NCBI RefSeq assembly: GCF_040436405.1
Contig: NZ_AP031575.1
Location: 3,847,501-3,911,500 of the forward strand
From: Marinomonas sp. THO17
GTDB taxonomy: Bacteria > Pseudomonadota > Gammaproteobacteria > Pseudomonadales > Marinomonadaceae
Length of the DNA stretch: 64,000 bases
Reading direction: 5' to 3'
Numbering within the stretch: the first letter of the stretch is position 1; the number at the start of each line of letters is the position of its first letter. The notes beneath the pieces were generated by a model. That model saw only the letters and a program-made list of their open reading frames with translations, was not told the origin of the DNA and made no database searches. Below are positions 19,537-63,742 of this stretch, piece by piece. The translations under genes were made by a program, and so were the position numbers.

Positions 19537-21231
19537 ATGACAATGGATACTTCTCCTCATAACAACGCAGATAACGAGAAAATGCCAGGAAGCTATTTAC
19601 CAGATTCGCTCAATCCTAGTGGCTATCAATGTCTAACGGATGTACTGGCTAATGCGGTAGATAAATATTCCGATTTGCCCGCTTATACCAGTGTGGGTCG
19701 TACCCTCACATACCGTGAACTGAATGAAAAATCTGATGAGTTCGCAGCTTACTTACAAAACGAAACCGATTTGTTACCCGGTGATCGTATTGCCATTCAA
19801 TTACCTAATATCATCCAGTATCCGATTGTACTTTTTGGTGCCATGAAAGCGGGTATGGTGGTGGTCAATACCAATCCACTTTATACCCCGAAAGAGCTGG
19901 AGCACCAGTTTAATGATGCCAATGTAAAAGCCTTGGTGGTGTTCGCCAATATGGCGAGTAACGTGGAAAAAATTCTGGCTCAAACCAGCATTCAGCACGT
20001 TATTATCACGCAGATTGCTGATCTACATTCACCCGTAAAACGTTTGTTGGTGAATTCGGTGGTCAAATACGTCAAGAAGATGGTACCACCATATCACATT
20101 CAAGGAGCGCTAACCCTTAATCAAGCCTTGGCCAAAGGGCGTGGTAAAAGTGTCAAAACCGTCTCACTTAAACCCGCTGAGATTGCCGTGTTGCAATATA
20201 CCGGTGGTACGACTGGGGTGGCCAAAGGCGCCATGCTGACAAACGCTAACTTGTTAGCCAATATGTATCAATTAAGTTCGCGCTTAGAGACCATCATTGA
20301 AGAACGAACAGAAACCTACATCGCACCTTTACCCTTGTATCATATCTATGCTTTCTTGATTCATGGCTTAACCTTGCTTGAACGCGGTGCGCACAGTATT
20401 TTGATCCCGAATCCACGAGATTTACCTGGGTTTGTTAGCGAATTGAAAAAGTGGAAGTTCACCGGTTTTGTTGGCCTGAATACCTTATTTGTTGGGCTTT
20501 GCAACCGTGAAGATTTCCGCGCTTTGGATTTTTCCGGCTTGAAGTTGACTTGTTCTGGTGGCATGCCTTTGACTCATGCTGCAGCAGATGAGTGGAAGCG
20601 TATTACGGGTTGCCAAGTGGTTGAAGGCTATGGTCTTACCGAAACGTCACCTGTGGTGTCTTTCAATCCAATAGGTAAAGAACGCATTGGTACCATTGGT
20701 TTGCCTGTGGGTGAAACCGACATCAAGATTCAAGGTGATAATGGTGAGGCATTGCCACAAGGCGAATCCGGTATGTTGTGTGTGCGTGGCCCGCAAGTGA
20801 TGAAGGGCTATTGGAATCGTGAGGATGCGACCCGTGAGGTCATGACCGAAGATGGTTTCCTCATCACGGGTGACATCGCCATGCAGCATGAAGATGGTTA
20901 TTTGCAAATCGTTGATCGCGCTAAAGATATGATCATAGTGTCTGGTTTCAATGTATATCCAACAGAAGTGGAAGATTGCATTTCCTCCCATCCTTCGATT
21001 CTTGAATCGGCTGCCATCGGCGTGCCGGATGATAAAACAGGTGAAGCGGTAAAAGCTTTCGTCGTGATGAAAGCGGATGAAACCATTGATATAGAAACAC
21101 TGAGAGCATTTTGTAAGGAGCATTTGGCTGCCTACAAGGTGCCCAAGCACATTGAAGTACGTACTGAACTGCCTAAGACGAATGTCGGTAAAGTATTACG
21201 TCGTGCTTTGCGCGAAGAAATGGCAGGCTAA
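19537..21231 (+). CDS. fadD: Long-chain fatty acid-CoA ligase
   Basis: This 564-residue member of the ANL adenylating superfamily activates fatty acids to acyl-CoA through an acyl-AMP intermediate. The P-loop-like motif is YTGGTTGVAKGAM, the core motif is GYGLTETSPVVSF, and the hinge and catalytic C-terminal parts are TGDIA, VDRAKDMIIVSGFNVYPTEVE (only the central part is diagnostic: DRAKDMIIVSGFNVYP) and PKTNVGKVLRR with the catalytic lysine. The size matches E. coli FadD (561). A CTGGAG ribosome site lies before the start. It is embedded in the beta-oxidation block and supplies acyl-CoA to it. It is probably peripheral on the inner membrane. Confidence 0.94.
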   Translation: MTMDTSPHNNADNEKMPGSYLPDSLNPSGYQCLTDVLANAVDKYSDLPAYTSVGRTLTYRELNEKSDEFAAYLQNETDLLPGDRIAIQLPNIIQYPIVLFGAMKAGMVVVNTNPLYTPKELEHQFNDANVKALVVFANMASNVEKILAQTSIQHVIITQIADLHSPVKRLLVNSVVKYVKKMVPPYHIQGALTLNQALAKGRGKSVKTVSLKPAEIAVLQYTGGTTGVAKGAMLTNANLLANMYQLSSRLETIIEERTETYIAPLPLYHIYAFLIHGLTLLERGAHSILIPNPRDLPGFVSELKKWKFTGFVGLNTLFVGLCNREDFRALDFSGLKLTCSGGMPLTHAAADEWKRITGCQVVEGYGLTETSPVVSFNPIGKERIGTIGLPVGETDIKIQGDNGEALPQGESGMLCVRGPQVMKGYWNREDATREVMTEDGFLITGDIAMQHEDGYLQIVDRAKDMIIVSGFNVYPTEVEDCISSHPSILESAAIGVPDDKTGEAVKAFVVMKADETIDIETLRAFCKEHLAAYKVPKHIEVRTELPKTNVGKVLRRALREEMAG

Positions 21232-53286: not shown

Positions 53287-56200
53287 TTAGCGCTGTTTAT
53301 CTTTTTTATCCTGTAGCTGTTTTGCTTGTACCTTGTTTAAATGACTACGTATTATGGGGGCTATTTGACTGAGAGGCGAGGAATCAAACATCTCCTGATG
53401 ACGACAGGGGATTTTATGACTTTCGACTTTACCATGAGTACGGTTTTGCCAGGCTGCAACAGAGTGTTCGAGTATATTTTCCATTGAGCCATTAACACTT
53501 TCTGTAGCGATGAAGAAGAGAATATCTGCCTCTACGGTATGCGCTTTATATTGACTGGCCAACTCTAAGTTATGCTCTAAGGTAGCCTGGATTCGACTCA
53601 TGATATCCTCTTGGCTGTCTTGTATTTTCTTTACGACCGACATGGATGATGAGTTATCGTAGTCACGCCACAACAAGGCGGCTAACTCGGCTTTGTTAAT
53701 GGGGAGTTTGTCGAGTTTGTTGAGATCATAACCTAAGAAAATTAATGCAGACTTGAGGATGTCAGCCTCATTTTTAGGTTCCTGATAGCTTTTTTTATAA
53801 GGGTAACTGTCTAGCATGCATAAGAAATCAACTGACTCTCCCTCTGCTTCTAATTGTTGTGTAATGGCATGAGCTACCAAGCCACCAAATGACCAACCTA
53901 GAAGCTGATAAGGACCTTTTGGTTGAACGCTTCTGATGAGTTTTAAGTAGTGACTGGCTACTGCTTCTAGGCTTTCTGGTTTGTTTTCTACTTGGCTTAA
54001 ACTAATAGATTGTAAGCCAAATAAGGGTGTCGATTGTGGCAAATGCTTAAGTATCGCCGCATAGCCCCAAGATAAGCCTAAAGCCGGGTGGATGCAAAAC
54101 AGGGGAGCATGGTCACCAGCAGATTTTATCGGTAATAAAGGTTGTAATGGATTCCAGTTGGAGGTTTGTTGTAAATGTTCTGCTAATTCTGCAATGGTGG
54201 CAGCTTTAAAAAGCACGCCCAGTGGAATTTCCATACCAAGATTATGCTCTAACTTGTGTAAAATACGCGTGGCAGATATGGAATCGCCACCTATTTCAAA
54301 GAAGTTATCATGTATGCCTACCAAAGTGAGCCCAAGGGTTTCTGCCCATAGGTTTGCTAGCATTTTCTCTGTATGGTTTCGTGGTGCCTGATAATGATTC
54401 GCTGATTGCCAACTCGGTTGTGGTAATGCTTTACGATTAATTTTTCCATTGGGAGTTAAAGGCATTTCATCAATGGTGATAAAGTGACTGGGAATCATAT
54501 AGTCGGGCAACTTAGTGATCAGCTGCTGTCGAATCTCATGAATGTCCATTTCGTTTTGTTTAGAAAGTAGATAAGCCACGAGCTGCTTGCTACCACTTGG
54601 TGACGTTTGAGGGGTAACAACTGCTTGTTCTATAGCTGGCATTGCAAGCAAGGCTGATTCTATATCACCTGTTTCAATGCGAAACCCTCGAATCTTCACC
54701 TGATTATCATCACGTCCTAAATATTCTAAAACACCGTCTTCTCGCCATCTGGCTTTATCGCCTGTGATATAGACTTTTTTACCTACGGCAAAGGGGTTAT
54801 TAATAAAGCGCTCCTCGGTTAAATCCGGTCTCTTATAATACCCCAATGCCAAGCCTTCTCCTGCAATATACAGATCTCCAGTGACGCCAACAGGAACGGG
54901 TTGCATCGTTTTATCAAGAACATACATCTGAGTATTAAAGATCGGACGACCTATAGGAGGGCTTTTTAAGTCATGATCGTGTTCAAGGGGCATAATACTT
55001 GACCAGATGGTCGTTTCCGTTGGCCCATAGAGGTTCATTACAGGGTGCCCTAAAGCATGCATGTGTTTCGCCAGTTGTCCAGATAAGGCTTCACCACCTA
55101 CTAATGCTCGTACACCTTGCCATTGCGTTTGGTATTCAGGTAACAGGGCTTGCCATAAAGACGGTGTGGCTTGCATAAAGGTGATGTGATGTTCGTTTGC
55201 CAATTGCGTTAGACGCTCGGGTGCTCTAACGATTTCTCGAGCCGCTATAACGACAGAACCTCCAACCATAATGGGTAAGAATAATTCCAATAAAGAAATA
55301 TCAAAAGAGATGGTAGTGACGGCTAGAAAGCGATCCACTTGGCTGAATTTAAGTTCATGCTGCATGGCAAGTAAGAAATTTTTTAACGCATAATGTGAAA
55401 TTTCAACTCCCTTGGGACGGCCAGTGGAACCCGAGGTATAGATAACATAAGCTGGCGCGTGAGGGTTGGTTTGCAGTTGGGTATGTTCAGAGTTATGCGT
55501 TACTGATAATGGTGCCCTAGGCGAATCTGTATGTTCGGTATACAGCATGACAAGTTTAGTATCAGGTAGACAGGAGCTGACTTGATGGTTAGTCACTATG
55601 CAGGCAGGCTCGGCATCTTCTAATATGTTGGCTAATCTGTCTTGTGGGAACTCTGGGTCAAGTGGTAAGTAAGCCGCTCCAGCTTTCCAAATCCCTAAGA
55701 GGACAGCTAACATCTCGCTGTTTCTTGGCAGGCAAGCTGCGACTAATTGAGTGGGTTTAACACCGTGATTAATAAGTTGACTAGCCCAGTACTCGGCTTT
55801 CATATTGAGTTCTTGGTAAGTGAAATTGCCATCTTGACCAATGACAGCGCTGCTCGATTCATGCCGCTCTACTTGTTGATGAAACATATCTAAGTAACTG
55901 TTGTCGGTAAGCTGAGTTTGCGTTTGATTCCACTCATGAAGGATCACATGCTGTTCTGTATCACTTAATAGTGATGCTTGCGAGATAGGTTGTTTTATCG
56001 AACTTAATAGACTTTTAATCAGACGTTCTAACTGTTTTAAATGTTGTGTTAATTCTTTATCAGTATAGCGTTTTGGGTTAGCGTCAAATTCAATGCTTAG
56101 GCCAGTATCGTCTTTTCTGTCAAAGATGAACACTGTGAGGTCATCAATCATGGCATTACTGAGGTTATGTGGTTTGGTAGTGCAATGACCAAATTTGACG

Positions 56201-57318
56201 TCGTAATCAAAGGGTTCAATATTCACACCCAAAGACGCAATTTGTTGATTGGCAGACAGCATGCCCAAATCTCGTTTCAGGTCTTCGTAACGATACTGTT
56301 GATGACGTAATGCATTACGTACAACCTTTGAGGTTTGTTCCAATAATTCTTGGAAACACATATTTGATGAGAAAGACAAACGTATTGGTACTGCATTGGC
56401 CAACATGGAAGGCGTATTTTTTTGAATCGCATTCACTCTGGCCGAGACTGGCATTGCAATGACCAGATCTTCCGTACCTGTCATGCGATAAAAATACGCT
56501 GCCACTAAAGCAATCAAAGTTTGTGGACGACTGGCTCCAAATGCTTGACCGATATGATTTAGGTGTTCGGTTAGTGCTGCGGATAAGCTTAAGGTTTGAC
56601 GTCGCATCGGGCTTTCATCTTCGGGACGAATGCGTTGTGCTAAAGACACACTTTCAGGAAGATGAACCAGATTATTGAGCCAATATTGACGATCTGCCTT
56701 GAAACGTTTGCTGTCTTTATAGGCTTGTTCTTGCGCTAGTAAAACTTCTAATGGATGAAAGGTACATTCAGACACTTCTTGATTAAAGAAGTAACTATTG
56801 TATATGTGCACCAATCTTTGTGTAATCAGGTGACCAGCAAAGCCATCAAGCGCTACATGGTGACAGCGGTGATACCAGATATGCTGTTGACTCTCTATCT
56901 TGATTAAGGCACTGAACCACAAACGATCACCTTTTTGTGTTAGGGGTTTTAGGTAATCCTGTTTCATCCAATGTAGGGCACTATTGATCGGATTCGTTTC
57001 ATGACTCATGTCCAGTAGAGAGAAGAAATCTTCGCTTGAATTGTGAATAGCTTGATAAGTTTCATCTTCCGTTTCGATGATTTGTGAACGAATACAATCG
57101 GTTTCTTTAATCAGTCTTTGAATGGCTTTTTGGAATAGTAGAACATCCAGCTCTCCTTGAATTTCAAGGTATTCTGCGACATTAAATGCCGTGCCTTTGG
57201 GAGCCAGTTTTTGTGCGATCCATTGACCACGTTGTGCCGTAGAAAGGGGAAGTATGGTTTGAGGTGAATGAATGTCAGGCGTATTTAGGCCGTAGGCATT
57301 AGTTTGCTTATTCATCAT
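53287..57318 (-). CDS. Single-module nonribosomal peptide synthetase (C-A-T-TE, EntF-like, predicted glycine)
   Basis: This 1343-residue enzyme has the domain order of EntF. The condensation domain (about 20-440) has HHVALDG at 153-159. The adenylation domain (about 470-970) has YTSGSTGRPKG, NLYGPTETTI, TGDKARW and NGKINRKAL. The carrier site is S1013 in FFEIGGDSIS. The thioesterase has S1143 in GWSFGG, D1170 in CMLDSYP and a histidine in CRHQEMF. The ten specificity residues read by eye are D673 I674 L677 Q716 L739 G741 L763 I771 W772 K959, the code known for glycine, not the serine code of EntF. The start at 57318 has GGAG upstream; the longer frame to 57345 does not. An aryl-acid synthase or MbtH partner is not in the window. 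It lies near a siderophore-type importer and a phosphopantetheinyl transferase. Confidence 0.92.
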   Translation of the reverse strand: MMNKQTNAYGLNTPDIHSPQTILPLSTAQRGQWIAQKLAPKGTAFNVAEYLEIQGELDVLLFQKAIQRLIKETDCIRSQIIETEDETYQAIHNSSEDFFSLLDMSHETNPINSALHWMKQDYLKPLTQKGDRLWFSALIKIESQQHIWYHRCHHVALDGFAGHLITQRLVHIYNSYFFNQEVSECTFHPLEVLLAQEQAYKDSKRFKADRQYWLNNLVHLPESVSLAQRIRPEDESPMRRQTLSLSAALTEHLNHIGQAFGASRPQTLIALVAAYFYRMTGTEDLVIAMPVSARVNAIQKNTPSMLANAVPIRLSFSSNMCFQELLEQTSKVVRNALRHQQYRYEDLKRDLGMLSANQQIASLGVNIEPFDYDVKFGHCTTKPHNLSNAMIDDLTVFIFDRKDDTGLSIEFDANPKRYTDKELTQHLKQLERLIKSLLSSIKQPISQASLLSDTEQHVILHEWNQTQTQLTDNSYLDMFHQQVERHESSSAVIGQDGNFTYQELNMKAEYWASQLINHGVKPTQLVAACLPRNSEMLAVLLGIWKAGAAYLPLDPEFPQDRLANILEDAEPACIVTNHQVSSCLPDTKLVMLYTEHTDSPRAPLSVTHNSEHTQLQTNPHAPAYVIYTSGSTGRPKGVEISHYALKNFLLAMQHELKFSQVDRFLAVTTISFDISLLELFLPIMVGGSVVIAAREIVRAPERLTQLANEHHITFMQATPSLWQALLPEYQTQWQGVRALVGGEALSGQLAKHMHALGHPVMNLYGPTETTIWSSIMPLEHDHDLKSPPIGRPIFNTQMYVLDKTMQPVPVGVTGDLYIAGEGLALGYYKRPDLTEERFINNPFAVGKKVYITGDKARWREDGVLEYLGRDDNQVKIRGFRIETGDIESALLAMPAIEQAVVTPQTSPSGSKQLVAYLLSKQNEMDIHEIRQQLITKLPDYMIPSHFITIDEMPLTPNGKINRKALPQPSWQSANHYQAPRNHTEKMLANLWAETLGLTLVGIHDNFFEIGGDSISATRILHKLEHNLGMEIPLGVLFKAATIAELAEHLQQTSNWNPLQPLLPIKSAGDHAPLFCIHPALGLSWGYAAILKHLPQSTPLFGLQSISLSQVENKPESLEAVASHYLKLIRSVQPKGPYQLLGWSFGGLVAHAITQQLEAEGESVDFLCMLDSYPYKKSYQEPKNEADILKSALIFLGYDLNKLDKLPINKAELAALLWRDYDNSSSMSVVKKIQDSQEDIMSRIQATLEHNLELASQYKAHTVEADILFFIATESVNGSMENILEHSVAAWQNRTHGKVESHKIPCRHQEMFDSSPLSQIAPIIRSHLNKVQAKQLQDKKDKQR

Positions 57319-57917
57319 AGTTTGCTCCTGCAAGTTAGGAAGCACTTCTTAAATAAGAGGCTACCTTTATTCATAATCCATATGAAACTAGATAAGTATT
57401 ATTACTTAACTGAACTGTATTTAAGTATATATATGATTAAATTAAATAGCTAATTATTATTGTCACGAATATGTTGCTTTTTTATGACAATAAAATTGCT
57501 CTCCTGCAATCGTTAAAATCGTCCTTAAAACATCCAAAATACCCAAGTGGTAGATTTTAGAAAGCACAATAAACGAGTCAAATTAGCTTAAATATAGGTT
57601 TAATATTCCTTAAAGTCATGATGTTAGTATCTTAATTTAAACTTAATACACTGTTTGCTTCAATAAAGCCTAACTTCTAGTAAGTAGTTTCGATCTCGTG
57701 AGAGATGGCAATAAGCTTTCATAGATGCTCTGTCTGATAGCAAAGCAGCGCCTAAAAGTCTTGATAAAAAGTACATAATGAGTCGGTAGGGCTTTGCAAT
57801 ATGGTTACTCAGGTATAGTCGAAACAAGGGGCGACAAGAGCCAAACAGGATGAATATCTGTTTCATTAACATCATTCACCGTGTTTGGTTACTCAGCAAT
57901 AAAAGATTCTTTTTCTA
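57319..57917. promoter_or_regulatory. AT-rich region upstream of the NRPS gene
   Basis: This 600-bp region carries the NRPS promoter. A palindrome TAAGTA-TTAT-TACTTA (57393-57408), 75 bp before the start, overlaps a GATAA element and could be a Fur or other operator. A - strand frame of 71 codons (57660-57875) has no ribosome site or family resemblance and is not called. No strong terminator follows the pseudoazurin gene, so read-through into the NRPS is conceivable. Confidence 0.45.
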
Positions 57918-58370
57918 TTAGCGAATTTTCAGTAGCAGGGCGTCCATTCGTTCGGGCTTTAGGGCCATTTTAGAGCGTAATCGAGGGGCTTTTTTCTCAA
58001 TGATAGCTTGGTTTTTTGCCGAACCGACTTGAATCATACCCACCATGCCCATCATTAAATGTGGTGGGCAATAGTAAAGATGTATGCCTTCAGCATCCAG
58101 AGTAATGGAGTATTCTTTATCTAAAGAGGATTTCCACTGTTTACTGCCTTCAGGTACCACGTAGGATTGCGCATTATGACCTGAATGGCTGGGAAGGAAT
58201 GTAACCGTATCACCAACTTGAGCATGAATAAAAGCGGGTTCAAAGATCATGCCGCCTTGTTCGGCTGATCCGTAATTTAACATTTGTACATGCCATTCTT
58301 TGGCATAAGTATTGGCACCAAAAATCACACAACTCAGTGCCATTATCATAATGTAACGTTTAGACAGCAT
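57918..58370 (-). CDS. Pseudoazurin-like blue copper protein
   Basis: This 150-residue periplasmic electron carrier has a signal peptide (MLSKRYIMIMALSCVIFGA, cleavage after TYA) and a cupredoxin fold. All four type-1 copper ligands of pseudoazurin are present: H65 (SHSGHNAQS), C101, H104 and M109 (YYCPPHLMMGMVGMIQVG). The N-terminal FEPAFIHAQVGDTVTFLP and the two-helix C-terminal tail also fit. Its start overlaps the end of the ABC ATPase gene by 11 bp, so it is the last cistron of the importer operon. Pseudoazurins usually donate electrons to nitrite or N2O reductase; here a link to metal-chelate reduction or copper handling is suggested by context only. Confidence 0.88.
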   Translation of the reverse strand: MLSKRYIMIMALSCVIFGANTYAKEWHVQMLNYGSAEQGGMIFEPAFIHAQVGDTVTFLPSHSGHNAQSYVVPEGSKQWKSSLDKEYSITLDAEGIHLYYCPPHLMMGMVGMIQVGSAKNQAIIEKKAPRLRSKMALKPERMDALLLKIR

Positions 58371-59196
58371 CTGCTATTCCTTTTGCCGGTTGAGAAGAGG
58401 ATAATTCTACTTGCATGCCGGTTCTTGCAGGGTTTTTACGAATTGTTCTAACAAAGGGGAGTCCATGACTGTCATGCGATATTTCAGCCTGAACACCATA
58501 GACATCCTTGATTAGCTCAGGAGAAAGTATGTCTTTGGGATTGCCACTTTTTACCAGTTGACCGTTTTTCAGTACCAGTAGATTATCCGCGTATTGAGCC
58601 GCAAGATTAAGGTCATGCAATACCATTAAGCTTACCCAACCTTGTTGCTTAGTTTGTTCATCAAGGTGATCCAATAGCACGTGCTGAAAGTGTAAATCCA
58701 GAGCACTTACCGGTTCATCCAACATGAGAATTTTTGGGTTTCGCATCAAAGCTTGAGCGAACAAAATCATTTGACACTGACCACCGCTAAGCTTGTTTAC
58801 CGAGCGATTGGCCAAGTGCAATAGTCCTATTTTGTCTAATGCCGATAAAGCTTGTTCAATCAAGCTATCATCTAACCGTAAACTCAGCGCGTCTAACTGA
58901 CCCAGTAAAACCACCTCTAGTACGCTCAATTCAATATCCAGTCGAATATCTTGCGGCATGTAACCGAATAACTTACGCCAAGATGACAGTTTTTTAGAGG
59001 TTAATGATTGATCTTGGAAACGAATATCCCCTGATTTAGCCTGAATATCGCCGAAAAGCGTTTTTAGCAGAGTGCTTTTCCCAGTACCATTTGGACCAAT
59101 AATGACATTGACCTTGCCAGGTAAAAGGGAAAACGACATGTCTTTAGCAAGTGTTAATGTGTCTAAGGTGACATTAAGTCGGTTGATTGTCAGCAT
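58360..59196 (-). CDS. ABC transporter ATPase, ferric siderophore/haem/B12 type (FecE/FepC-like)
   Basis: This 278-residue ATPase powers uptake of an iron chelate or cobalamin-like compound. The Walker A is IIGPNGTGKSTLLKTLFG, the Q loop GYMPQDIRLDIELSVLEVV, the signature LSGGQCQMILFAQAL, the Walker B ILMLDEPVSALD and the switch histidine lies in MVLHDLNLAAQYAD. The C-terminal VYGVQAEISHDSHGLPFVRTI segment is typical of FepC/FhuC-like proteins. It lies 3 bp after the permease stop and overlaps the pseudoazurin start, so the four cistrons form one operon. Confidence 0.93.
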   Translation of the reverse strand: MLTINRLNVTLDTLTLAKDMSFSLLPGKVNVIIGPNGTGKSTLLKTLFGDIQAKSGDIRFQDQSLTSKKLSSWRKLFGYMPQDIRLDIELSVLEVVLLGQLDALSLRLDDSLIEQALSALDKIGLLHLANRSVNKLSGGQCQMILFAQALMRNPKILMLDEPVSALDLHFQHVLLDHLDEQTKQQGWVSLMVLHDLNLAAQYADNLLVLKNGQLVKSGNPKDILSPELIKDVYGVQAEISHDSHGLPFVRTIRKNPARTGMQVELSSSQPAKGIADAV

Positions 59197-59199
59197 AAC

Positions 59200-60255
59200 T
59201 TAGCGCCTTTTTCCTAAGATCAGCCAGAAGAAGAAAGGCACACCTATGATGGCGGTTACTATGCCAATGGGAAATAAGGCTCCAGGGACAATGACTTTGG
59301 ATAATACCGACGCGCTGGAAAGTAAAAAAGCACCAATTAAAAAAGACAATGGGATGAAAAATCGTTGATCCTCACCTACTAGAATCTTGGCGATATTGGG
59401 GGCGACAATGCCAATAAAGCCTATGATACCAACAAAGCTGGTGACAGTGGCGGTCATCAGAGCAACAATAAAAAGAGTTTTGAGGCGTAGTTGACTGACA
59501 TTCACGCCCAGACTTTTCGCTCTTTCTTCCCCCAGACGCAGGGCGGTTAATTTCCATGCATCCTTCATTAAAAAAATCATGCAGATCAATGTCACAACAC
59601 CAACAATCAATAAATTAGACCAAGATGCTTTTGAGAGACTGCCAAACAGCCAAAAGAGAATTTGTTGGCTCAATTCAGGTGAAGAAATGAATTGCACCAA
59701 AGACAACAGAGATTGAAACAAAAACAATAAGGCAATACCGGCCAGAATAAGTTGCCCCGAACTGATATGTTGCATGGTGGCCAAAGCAAACAAAAAAGCC
59801 GCTGCAAGTATACAACAAATGAAGGCACCTAAGGGTACTGCCACATTGGCATTGAGGCCAAGTGAACCAACGTATAAGGTCATGGCGGCACCGAAACCCG
59901 CAGCAGCAGCCATACCTAAAGTATATGGACTGGCCATTGGATTGTTTAATAAGGTTTGCATTTCTGCGCCGCCTACCCCTAACACGCCGCCAACGATGAC
60001 CGCCATAATGGCAATGGGTAAGCGTAAGCTGGTCACAATGACTTCCGTTGTTGGGTCAACTGGTGTATTGAAGCCAATTAGATGAAGTAAGGCGTTGGTC
60101 ACTTCCTTGACGTTCAGAAGGGAGGGTCCAGTAGCTACATCCAATACAAAGGAGGCCGTAAGAATGATGAATAAGACACTTATAACAAACCAGCGGCGCT
60201 GTTCAGAACGCCGCTGGTTTGATATAGCATCAGTGAGTAAACCTGATGACTGCAT
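59200..60255 (-). CDS. FecCD family ABC transporter permease
   Basis: This 351-residue inner-membrane permease has about ten hydrophobic segments. FecCD family marks include SLRLPIAIMAVIVGGVLGVG with GAEMQTLLNNPMASPYTLGM, the region contacting the ATPase (LGEERAKSLGVNVSQLR) and FVGIIGFIGIVAPNIAKILVG. A single permease gene implies a homodimer. It lies between the binding-protein gene (33 bp upstream) and the ATPase gene. The ribosome site before the ATG is weak, which suggests translational dependence on the upstream gene. Confidence 0.93.
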   Translation of the reverse strand: MQSSGLLTDAISNQRRSEQRRWFVISVLFIILTASFVLDVATGPSLLNVKEVTNALLHLIGFNTPVDPTTEVIVTSLRLPIAIMAVIVGGVLGVGGAEMQTLLNNPMASPYTLGMAAAAGFGAAMTLYVGSLGLNANVAVPLGAFICCILAAAFLFALATMQHISSGQLILAGIALLFLFQSLLSLVQFISSPELSQQILFWLFGSLSKASWSNLLIVGVVTLICMIFLMKDAWKLTALRLGEERAKSLGVNVSQLRLKTLFIVALMTATVTSFVGIIGFIGIVAPNIAKILVGEDQRFFIPLSFLIGAFLLSSASVLSKVIVPGALFPIGIVTAIIGVPFFFWLILGKRR

Positions 60256-61389: not shown

Positions 61390-61406
61390 CAATATGATCC
61401 TTAATT

Positions 61407-61520
61407 GAGAATGATTTTCGACTGTGAATAGTACTTATTATTTATCTTATTTCAATACTATTTTGTGATTTTTTGCATGATATATTCTCAATAGCGTCAA
61501 AAGTGATTGCTATCAATTGA
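61407..61520. promoter_or_regulatory. Divergent promoter region with Fur-box-like sequences
   Basis: Between the importer operon and the transferase gene lie two partial matches to the 19-bp Fur consensus: GAGAATGATTTTCGACTGT (61407-61425) and AGTGATTGCTATCAATTGA (61502-61520, whose complement contains TTGATAGCAATCACT). Their places suit iron-regulated divergent transcription. Each matches only about 11-12 of 19 positions. Confidence 0.45.
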
Positions 61521-61570
61521 ATTAGCTTCTGATTTTGATATGTTGAGTGTCTTTTGTCGGCCGGAATATA

Positions 61571-62254
61571 GTGAAAAATAATAACCAAACAACTGTTCAT
61601 CTTGGCGCTCATGGTGCTGCTTGTATTCACCATGTACGTTTTCAATCAGGCGATCTTATTGCACAGAATATTCACCCAGATATTCCTAAACCCGCTGAAT
61701 ACAATCGCTGGCGAATTAAGCGCAAAGAAACTTTTTTAGCTGGCAGAATGGCGGTACGTTCCGCACAGCAAGCTTTAGGCTTGACTCACTTTGATGTACT
61801 ACGAGGTGGAGATGGAGCCCCTATTTGGCCGTCTCATATATTAGGCAGTGTATCGCACACAGAAAACGAAGCCATTGCTCTTATGATTGATGCCCGGCAG
61901 TCGAGTTTAATGGGGGTTGGTGTGGACTTAGAGAAAATAAACAGCGGCAGTCAGCTAGAAGATGAAAGCATGATTGGTCTGCCAGAAGAGTTTCGTATAC
62001 TTCATAGCATAGGCTTTCAGTCTGAATGTGCTAGGTTGTTGCTGTTCTCCCTAAAAGAAAGTGTTTATAAGGCTTTGTATCCAAGTGTGGGTCAGTTCTT
62101 TGATTTTTTGGATGTGGCTTTGGAGGCCGAACAAGAAGGTGTCTTTTCATTGCTTGTACAAAGAGATTTGAGTGAAAAAATTGCCATGGGTTGTCGGATA
62201 TATGGAGGCTATAAGCAAGTCAATGAGAACATGATTACCTTTGCGTATTTCTGA
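61571..62254 (+). CDS. 4'-phosphopantetheinyl transferase, EntD type
   Basis: This protein of about 227 residues transfers the phosphopantetheine arm of CoA to carrier domains, here most likely the NRPS at 53287. EntD-type marks are RIKRKETFLAGRMAVRSAQ, LGSVSHTENEAIALM, the Mg-binding GVGVDLEKI and FSLKESVYKALYPSVGQFFDF. The start is uncertain: a GTG at 61571 with GGAA upstream gives an N terminus that aligns with E. coli EntD, while another GTG at 61547 adds eight residues. It is divergent from the importer operon and convergent to the GH79 gene with a 15-bp gap. Confidence 0.9.
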   Translation: MKNNNQTTVHLGAHGAACIHHVRFQSGDLIAQNIHPDIPKPAEYNRWRIKRKETFLAGRMAVRSAQQALGLTHFDVLRGGDGAPIWPSHILGSVSHTENEAIALMIDARQSSLMGVGVDLEKINSGSQLEDESMIGLPEEFRILHSIGFQSECARLLLFSLKESVYKALYPSVGQFFDFLDVALEAEQEGVFSLLVQRDLSEKIAMGCRIYGGYKQVNENMITFAYF

Positions 62255-62269
62255 ATGAATGACTATTCA

Positions 62270-63742
62270 TTACAAGCTGAAGCACCAAAAATTAATGCTA
62301 TATGGGCTGATCAGGTTGAGTTTTGAAAGTTTTGGAAAGTCACTGAGTTTTACTTTTCCATTTTTAAATTTGGGACGGAAGCCATTGATACGAATCTTCT
62401 TGGCGGTGAGTTTGTCAGCGGTGATTTCAAAGCGCTTCTTTTTCAATCCAAATTGCTGACAATGGATGATTTTCGTTTGTGCCGTCATGTTAATCATGAG
62501 TAAGGTACATTTGCCTGATTTTTGGGCCTTATGGCAATAGACCAGAAGTGATGGGTCACTGCTGTGTACCTGATATACCTGGTTGCCCATGAGTTTTTGC
62601 CAGAGCCAGCTGACCCAAAAATCTGGGTTGGGTTTAAGTGTTTGGCGATTAATAAGAGCATAATCTCCGCCAATTAAACTTTGTCTGATCATGACCTTTT
62701 GACCTAATTTGGCGCCTCTACCCAATTGGTCTGCCCACCAAAAAGAAGAAATGAATCTGTCTGACAGTTTGGTTTGACCTCCACATTGCGCTGATCCACT
62801 TTCTCCCGTCCAAATCTCCGCGTGAGCTTGATGTTTGTCACGATAGCTGGCGAGTTGTTGTGCGTATTTTTCAAAGGTGAGCATGGCCATAGGGGACAGC
62901 AAATTACGAGGAGTAGCAGCACGGGTTTTGACCGGTGATCGACTGCTTTGAAAGGGGTAGTAATGCCAATCTACTATGTCCAACTTTTCATTTAGATGCT
63001 CAAGAAAAGGCGCCGTTAGATTGCTAATGGGTTTAATGGCTTCTCCGATTCTTGGCCAAAAGGCACTGCCTGGGCCAGCCACCAAACTGTTAGGACTATG
63101 GGTACGAATACACTTTATAAAACGATCATAATCTCGTGCTAAATTTTTCGCGCTAGGTTGAGCACTGAGACCATGAAAAGCCCAATAAGCATTCAGCTCA
63201 TTGCCTAATTCACATATTGCGATTGATTGACCTTGCTGCCGACAATAGCTCAGTAAATCCGTCACTTCATCGGCTTGCCATTGACCATGTTGTTTTTTAT
63301 CAAATACACCGTACTTGAAAGTAAACATGAGCTTTAGATCATTGCGCTGACAAAATAAATGTAATTGTTGCCAAGTTTCTTCTGTTAATTGAAGGGCACC
63401 CTGTTGTGCTTGAGTAGGGTTAGTAAAGTAGTGGAGTTTATCTGCTTCCGAGCCGCCCACGCGCAGATAAGATGGCCCTAATGCTTGCACCAACAGATCC
63501 AGTTTACTGGGATTTAAGTCAAGTGGAGCTGTTTTCTCAGTTCCTAGACCTTTCTGCGAGCCTTTGCCGCCATCCCACCAAAAACCGCCAGCTAACACTG
63601 AAATATCAATGGAAAAGGACAGATAACAAGGACTGATTTCTTGCATCACAGTATTCGATATCAGACTAACCGTTACGTGTTTCTGATGACCCTTGATAAA
63701 TGAGGAGACCTTACTGAAACGATTAAAGTTGAGCGCAAACAA
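62270..63742 (-). CDS. Glycoside hydrolase family 79 (heparanase-like) protein
   Basis: This 490-residue TIM-barrel glycosidase resembles heparanase-type beta-glucuronidases. The N-terminal ISPCYLSFSIDISVLAGGFW and LRVGGSEADKLHYF match the first strands. The acid/base glutamate is E182 in CELGNELNAYW and the nucleophile is E314 in IWTGESGSAQCGGQ. A beta-sandwich C-terminal part follows (QVYQVHSSDPSLLVYCHKA onward). I see no signal peptide, so it may be cytoplasmic or start further in. Bacterial GH79 enzymes act on glucuronides or glycosaminoglycan fragments. The rather basic tail (KKKRFEITADKLTAKKIRI) is notable. It has no partner genes here. Confidence 0.82.
   Translation of the reverse strand: MFALNFNRFSKVSSFIKGHQKHVTVSLISNTVMQEISPCYLSFSIDISVLAGGFWWDGGKGSQKGLGTEKTAPLDLNPSKLDLLVQALGPSYLRVGGSEADKLHYFTNPTQAQQGALQLTEETWQQLHLFCQRNDLKLMFTFKYGVFDKKQHGQWQADEVTDLLSYCRQQGQSIAICELGNELNAYWAFHGLSAQPSAKNLARDYDRFIKCIRTHSPNSLVAGPGSAFWPRIGEAIKPISNLTAPFLEHLNEKLDIVDWHYYPFQSSRSPVKTRAATPRNLLSPMAMLTFEKYAQQLASYRDKHQAHAEIWTGESGSAQCGGQTKLSDRFISSFWWADQLGRGAKLGQKVMIRQSLIGGDYALINRQTLKPNPDFWVSWLWQKLMGNQVYQVHSSDPSLLVYCHKAQKSGKCTLLMINMTAQTKIIHCQQFGLKKKRFEITADKLTAKKIRINGFRPKFKNGKVKLSDFPKLSKLNLISPYSINFWCFSL

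Follow-up and report, generated by a model that had tools for sequence, protein, structure and literature searches.

Several described systems resemble in part the gene analysed here, a stand-alone nonribosomal peptide synthetase (NRPS) module of Marinomonas sp. THO17 that lies in a 64,000-nucleotide stretch of DNA (positions 3847501–3911500 of the 3.92-Mb single-contig genome; hereafter the window). The glycine-glucolipid of Alcanivorax borkumensis consists of four 3-hydroxy acids, glucose and glycine, and the article names the RhlB-like glycosyltransferases ABO_1783 and ABO_2215 as candidates for a pathway given as not elucidated in 2023 (PMC10710537). A trimeric acyl-glycine has been taken as a hint that glycine joins first (PMC10684412). 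With this lipid the product predicted below would share an amide-linked acyl-glycine, a sugar on the chain and an origin in a marine gammaproteobacterium, the link to the module being chemical only. The serrawettin W1 synthetase SwrW of Serratia, which we liken by description, has the same order of condensation (C), adenylation (A), thiolation (T) and thioesterase (TE) domains and joins 3-hydroxydecanoic acid to one kind of amino acid, but it uses serine instead of glycine and makes a symmetric two-unit product of two serines and two 3-hydroxydecanoic acids (PMC7767323). FrsA of FR900359 biosynthesis, again likened by description, consists of a single NRPS module with a TE and with a starter C domain that uses acyl-coenzyme A (acyl-CoA), and the TE of Sln9 (salinamide) handles an acylglycine; unlike the module, both are arms of larger NRPS systems, and FrsA uses leucine (PMC7794379). 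We consider with moderate confidence that the Marinomonas gene encodes an N-acylglycine synthetase of the lipo-initiating kind, and that in this genome its product probably becomes glycosylated, in a chemistry like that of Alcanivorax.

The module has 1343 amino acids and occupies positions 53287–57318 of the window on the reverse strand from its ATG start (53287–57345 from the GTG at which the reading frame opens), with no stops. Pfam matches, all above their gathering scores, follow in the order Condensation, AMP-binding, AMP-binding_C, PP-binding and Thioesterase, and place a starter (lipo-initiating) C domain at 55942–57261 with an intact HHxxxDG motif (HHVALDG, residues 153–159, positions 56842–56862), an A domain at 54442–55884, a T domain with the GGDS motif and Ser1013 at 54172–54360, and a full-length TE that keeps its motifs at 53350–54105. 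The C-A-T-TE order of EntF and the complete TE triad proposed in the preliminary description of this locus are thereby borne out (Ser1143/Asp1170/His1307, Asp and His being assigned by motif), and the score against the NCBIfam EntF equivalog NF007605 is 708 bits, below the cut-off of 2400. The stand-alone architecture was also rightly recognized, as the six other condensation matches of the genome all lie at 3.08–3.10 Mb and no other NRPS module adjoins 53287–57318. Comparison with the orthologue at the sister locus, in genome G005 (module 83% identical), gave a nonsynonymous rate (dN) of 0.105 and a synonymous rate (dS) of 1.85, near saturation, with dN below 0.12 in every domain; it counts as a point against our reading that such pairwise dN/dS values can neither separate the lineage of the window from that of G005 nor show evolution on its own branch. 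In the C-domain tree described below, the branch of the window module is 0.083 long and that of G005 0.13. Together, the open gene, the low dN/dS and a branch no longer than the sister's speak against a decaying remnant. Judged from its sequence, the module is real and intact, and its glycine code was correctly read.

That code comprises residues 673, 674, 677, 716, 739, 741, 763, 771, 772 and 959, which were located from anchoring sequence motifs following the numbering of PheA and read D-I-L-Q-L-G-L-I-W-K. Over the pocket region the most similar solved protein is the first A domain of Geobacillus DhbF (PDB 5U89; 197 bits, the next at 132.7), identical at the nine aligned pocket positions, with the Lys outside the piece searched and the one single-residue gap of the alignment located outside the pocket. 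DhbF activates glycine, and in its structure Trp755, bonded to Gln699, closes the pocket on the substrate (PMC11253843). We read these two residues as the Trp and Gln in the code, and the glycine assignment made at the outset holds. The serine pocket of EntF, which we take to be DVWHFSLVDK, is not that of the module. DhbF and EntF resemble it in pocket and in domain order, respectively, and differ from it in belonging to dihydroxybenzoate (DHB) siderophore pathways.

To place the module among its relatives, one genome each of 84,980 species was scanned with six short peptide patterns. The scan returned 67 loci with a relative, down to 25% identity, which does not support the rarity that the preliminary description had supposed. 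Hosts include Marinomonas, Terasakiispira, Zhongshania, Dyella, Rhodanobacter, Frateuria, Lysobacter, Luteimonas, Xanthomonas and Zavarzinia, and further Nitrospirillum, Telmatospirillum, Asaia, Gluconobacter, Piscinibacter, Acidobacteriota and others. For sequence comparison 80 loci matched, of which a length filter kept 77, and merging of duplicates reduced them to 68 distinct sequences, the window included; the glycine-type code DI[LV]Q[LMV]G[LFI][IV]WK is present in 47 of these, and two more end before the Lys. Among the titles and abstract beginnings in the matches listed from open-licence PubMed Central (PMC) articles, none described an acylglycine NRPS or an NRPS-glycosyltransferase family, which is not proof that none exists. 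In the assemblies of M. rhodophyticola and Asaia prunellae (L105, L107) the module gene is split over several frames. Relatives with the serine code DVWHFSLVDK were also seen (L125–L127 and L086, L088, L090, L092, L098), L125–L127 matching the module over most of its length at 33–36% identity, and in a sample of 369 genomes of the class the module query at E 1e-200 gave three more genomes, all with the serine code.

Searched alone, the C domain found its best solved match in the starter C domain of RzmA (PDB 7C1H/7C1K; 255.7 bits over residues 20–451), followed by CDA C1 (183.5), ObiF1 (162), EntF (156.2) and VibH (113.5), all others reaching at most 82.5 bits. In a maximum-likelihood tree of C domains the module family forms a group of 63 rows (support 97/95), and EntF together with the first C domains (C1) of three Marinomonas dimodular NRPSs stands outside it in a clade of its own (100/100); from their gene context, these C1 domains presumably accept DHB. 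RzmA belongs to a larger NRPS, naturally takes a C2 acyl group and has Arg148 where the window has Gly. Its starter domain uses acyl-CoA, residue 148 sets the chain length, and replacing Arg148 by smaller residues shifts the product from C2 to C8 or C10, the addition of Y138A shifting it further (PMC7804268). At position 148 the 68 family sequences carry Gly in 62 cases, Ala in five and Ser in one, and 15 further Gly-coded modules from a sample of the order carry Gly (6) or Ala (9). At position 138, where the window has Cys, the family has Ala in 34, Cys in 25, Val in six, Ser in two and Thr in one. EntF and the three dimodular C1 domains have Phe at 148 and Tyr or Phe at 138. We infer, above all from the C-pocket residues at 148 and 138, that the donor would be an aliphatic acyl group of medium or long chain. 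The earlier guess of an acyl-CoA donor gains support from the starter-type C domain as well, through the RzmA match, the tree and the pocket residues. A FadD-type long-chain acyl-CoA ligase (19537–21231, forward strand; 868 bits, just below the model cut-off of 879), accompanied in the window by fatty-acid oxidation genes, may be a generic source of acyl-CoA for the module.

The recurring partner of the family is a glycosyltransferase (GT). Once ten Marinomonas, six actinobacterial and five Inquilinus-type loci are taken from the 67 (the last two groups being a divergent set of 11), 46 non-Marinomonas loci are left, and in 40 of these one GT clade, probably GT1-type to judge from Pfam matches, lies directly downstream of the module. 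Of the other six, two loci stop at the module (L078, L085) and one carries the GT farther along (L107); in the remaining three, L049, L093 and L096 (Terasakiispira, a Cellvibrionaceae metagenome-assembled genome (MAG) and a Marinicaulis MAG), the locus contains no GT. Adjacent pairs of module and GT occur in Gammaproteobacteria (with Piscinibacter counted there by its order), Alphaproteobacteria and Acidobacteriota. The GT adjoins the module in none of the ten Marinomonas loci, but the THO17 genome encodes a member of the module-adjacent clade at 2824824–2826092 (reverse strand), 46% identical to the Zhongshania GT and 1.08 Mb away from the module. In the GT tree the clade of module-adjacent GTs (59 rows, 95/99) takes in this protein and two from M. 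spartinae, the THO17 protein being sister to the adjacent GT of genome G718 (100/100). For counts within the genus, a module was defined as a full-length match of at least 57% identity, which holds for 13 of 48 Marinomonas genomes; at E 1e-100 other NRPS modules raise the count to 24. The GT (E 1e-30) was found in three of the 48, THO17 and the two M. spartinae, all three with the module and all without a DHB ligase. In the order sample, the GT (E 1e-60) occurs in 16 of 390 genomes and 3 of 142 genera; the other 15 genomes all have the module, and their 16 module copies all lie on the same strand as the GT match, 5–106 bases away. Within the class sample only THO17 has the GT. A partnership of the module and its own GT in trans is likely on these comparisons. 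As the GT clade accompanies the family and has a member in this genome, the terms orphan and minimal are not supported for the module, which seems better filed in a widespread family of lipo-initiating, glycine-specific single modules whose usual partner is a GT.

Alongside the module and GT, other genes recur in parts of the family. Upstream of the pair, Zhongshania L084, four genomes of one genus and G718 have a protein of 326–331 amino acids (L084, L162–L166), which is Sulfotransfer_3 in the three that were scanned and has no match in the window or in the Marinomonas loci searched; in the loci with this protein the lipid may be sulfated. Alcanivorax was considered as the GT-rich genus and dropped, since the GT of G437 is identical to that of the Zhongshania MAG L084 and the genus is more likely Zhongshania. 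Downstream of the pair, one protein cluster recurs in L056, L058, L061–L063, L065, L071, L073, L074, L076, L083, L094, L102 and L103, and the three proteins scanned, all from L076, gave weak Condensation or PapA_C matches, one of them just below the Pfam cut-off. ABC-2 exporter genes follow the pair in acetic acid bacteria and RND pumps in some Alphaproteobacteria, as for an acylated, exported glycolipid.

In the mechanism that we propose, a phosphopantetheinyl transferase would prime the T domain, and the A domain would activate glycine and load it there. The glycine would then be N-acylated by the starter C domain with a fatty acyl group of medium or long chain, probably 3-hydroxylated, that is supplied by CoA (or an acyl carrier protein). 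The TE would free the resulting N-acylglycine either hydrolytically or by passing it to a hydroxyl. The adjacent GT present in most family members outside Marinomonas would next add a sugar to the product, and in THO17 the enzyme at 2824824–2826092 would do so in trans. The outcome would be an acyl-glycine type of (glyco)lipid that resembles in its chemistry the Alcanivorax compound, glucosyl-(3-hydroxyacyl)n-glycine. The preliminary description had held that the TE cannot cyclise its product because glycine has no hydroxyl. That argument is incomplete, since a 3-hydroxyacyl chain would supply the hydroxyl and a lactone would be possible; the lactone of serrawettin W1 reportedly uses the acyl hydroxyl in this way. 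A different role for the TE would be that of a tailoring enzyme which transfers the acyl-glycine to a hydroxyl on some other molecule. This would follow FrsA and Sln9, whose TEs pass acyl-amino acids, in Sln9 an acylglycine, to a separate peptide (PMC7794379), and the window TE has its full length and its motifs, but no partner NRPS recurs beside the family and the partner that does recur is a GT, which makes this role very unlikely in our view.

Extending the N-acylglycine synthetase reading to the whole family, we put forward tentatively, and as less probable than its alternatives taken together, that the starter-C/A(Gly)/T/TE module and its own GT clade form a two-gene system for glycosylated acyl-glycine lipids, that this is the missing route to surfactants of the glycine-glucolipid type, and that the pair came apart in Marinomonas, where the synthetase is surrounded by iron-uptake genes and the GT is kept at a distant locus in three genomes, each with the module and without a DHB ligase. 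If true, gene neighbourhood would mislead here, a lookalike of half the enterobactin system being a lipid synthetase. The NRPS-GT pair would then offer a specific candidate pathway, open to testing, for glycolipid biosurfactants that contain glycine, and the module a compact one-module system in which to study the selection of acyl chains by starter C domains.

A number of findings pull the other way. Nineteen of the 68 family sequences have another pocket code, among them five Inquilinus-type with the serine code and four from Dyella with DILWLGLVLK. In the C tree the branching among RzmA, the EntF clade and the family is drawn open, so that RzmA is not shown to be nearer than EntF, and a profile built from the family C domains scores EntF-type C domains at 264–300 bits and the other C domains tried at no more than 149. 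The C domains of the hydroxamate-type NRPS line in the same genome sit on very long branches and could not be placed. Regarding the GT, the chance of 0.017 that all three Marinomonas genomes with it would be module-positive counts two sister genomes separately, and a single genus supplies 14 of the 15 other GT genomes in the order sample. Ten of the 13 Marinomonas module genomes lack this GT clade, meaning that glycosylation is not general there and that a detached GT may act otherwise. GTs about 37% identical also occur with no NRPS in the 11 kb read, in all three plasmid loci examined of 48 records; these three plasmid GTs and six paralogues fall outside the adjacent-GT clade. Finally, permease and ATPase genes of an iron-type importer adjoin the module in all 11 Marinomonas module genomes other than M. 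spartinae, which the lipid reading leaves unexplained, and a Fur-like site in front of the importer points to iron, suggestively only because weak matches of this kind are in general excess across the window (15 against 5.1 expected).

In the window the importer genes lie on the reverse strand and comprise an ATP-binding cassette (ABC) ATPase of the heme/FecE/FhuC type (58360–59196; no equivalog cut-off reached), a FecCD-family permease (59200–60255) and a class III periplasmic binding protein (PF01497; 60289–61392). The Fur-like site, TGAGAATGATTTTCG at 61406–61420, has three mismatches to the Fur consensus and lies about 14 bases upstream of the binding-protein frame as called from a TTG start; the same 15 bases precede the binding-protein orthologue in L111 and L046. 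This setting invites the explanation that the acyl-glycine is itself a metallophore, exported by a major facilitator superfamily (MFS) protein and re-imported as a metal complex through the binding protein, permease and ATPase. Such an importer beside a synthetase is what a metallophore cluster should have, and besides the permease and ATPase, present also in three genomes without DHB genes, a binding protein is found beside the module in eight and an MFS gene in ten of the 11 genomes. On the other hand, N-acylglycines offer, by general chemistry, one carboxylate and an amide only as ligands, and enzymes for chelating groups were not found in the cluster (no DHB ligase over the cut-off in the genome, not every chelator pathway having been searched). 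The MFS gene is absent from the window: 57346–57917 has no similarity to that of the ten loci, some 0.4 kb of it lying beyond the part shared with G005. Among the seven open reading frames (ORFs) of at least 600 amino acids in the window there is no TonB receptor, and neither the window nor its right flank has a match to the receptor of G005. Moreover, the hydroxamate NRPS cluster, which has its own receptor, could be what the importer serves. The importer is a neighbour of the module in the Marinomonas lineage only: the surroundings of the module in M. spartinae and Terasakiispira yielded no permease, ATPase, binding protein, MFS or pseudoazurin gene, and homologues of the permease, binding protein and pseudoazurin were not found among the called ORFs of other family loci (flanks of 0–10 kb). 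On balance a metallophore is unlikely. Of the picture drawn in the preliminary description, an orphan EntF-like module acting as a metallophore assembly line, only part finds support.

A catecholate history of the module must also be weighed, namely that it once made DHB-Gly, a compound of the itoic acid type, or served a neighbouring catecholate siderophore, and that the genome then lost entCEBA, an exporter and a dimodular NRPS, leaving an enzyme with no donor. DHB genes lie near the module, divergent from the importer, in eight of the 11 ABC-linked Marinomonas loci (entC, E, B and A together in seven; in G040 entC and entA, with entE and entB more distant at about 17 kb), and the G005 island adds a TonB receptor, EntS and a dimodular EntF-like NRPS. 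Where G005 carries entCEBA on 4.7 kb the window has 0.1 kb, and unrelated DNA stands in place of the MFS gene, which may reflect either a loss from the window or a gain by G005. A DHB ligase over the cut-off is present in 18 of the 48 Marinomonas genomes, more often with the module (8/13) than without it (10/35; Fisher p 0.049), and isochorismate synthase (E 1e-60) in the same 18. The affinity of the family C profile for EntF-type domains, noted above, fits such an origin as well.

Against this history stand five of the 13 module genomes (THO17, G001, G006, G043 and G044) that lack both DHB ligase and isochorismate synthase. Three sister pairs of the C tree, THO17/G005, G006/G035 and G001/G013, differ in DHB status and keep the module (the module genes of G001, G013, G006 and G018 are identical to those of M. 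alcarazii, M. foliarum, M. arctica and M. lutimaris, respectively). Residues of the C pocket do not vary between genomes with and without DHB genes, one position in G018 excepted, and are unlike those that the dimodular C1 domains have in the same islands; the window branch is no longer than that of G005; and no ORF in the non-Marinomonas loci clusters with entC, entB or entE of the genus. From the five DHB-minus genomes, the differing sister pairs and pocket residues that do not follow DHB status, the module seems not to depend on DHB, despite the frequent DHB genes nearby, and we regard the remnant as quite unlikely. A DHB-Gly siderophore made by THO17 itself was likewise set aside as a leading reading, with no DHB ligase or isochorismate synthase found and the C domain outside the EntF clade. 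The earlier statement that DHB genes, an acyl ligase and MbtH are wanting in the window extends, for the DHB-AMP ligase (none over the cut-off) and isochorismate synthase (none at E 1e-60), to the whole genome, in which entA and entB were not searched; it fails for the acyl ligase, the FadD-type enzyme being in the window.

The sole MbtH match of the genome, at 3095290–3095433, lies outside the window in a second NRPS cluster (about 3074000–3097000; L008, L009) that looks like a hydroxamate-type siderophore system, with a Lys/Orn monooxygenase, a GNAT acetyltransferase, a TonB receptor, a thioesterase, an ABC protein and NRPS ORFs of 3602 and about 1812 amino acids. A link between the module and this cluster at 3.075–3.097 Mb was considered and rejected, as nothing tying them was seen and the cluster has its own TE, receptor and ABC protein. 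Between the module and the importer genes lies a pseudoazurin gene (57918–58370, reverse strand; TIGR02375, 112.5 bits, cut-off 109.85), found in three of the 13 Marinomonas module loci (the window, G005 and G035). Divergent from the importer genes is an Sfp/EntD-like 4'-phosphopantetheinyl transferase (61547–62254, forward strand), which could prime the T domain of the module. Beside it, a GH79-like protein (62270–63742, reverse strand) also adjoins the module operon in the DHB-minus genomes G001 and G006.

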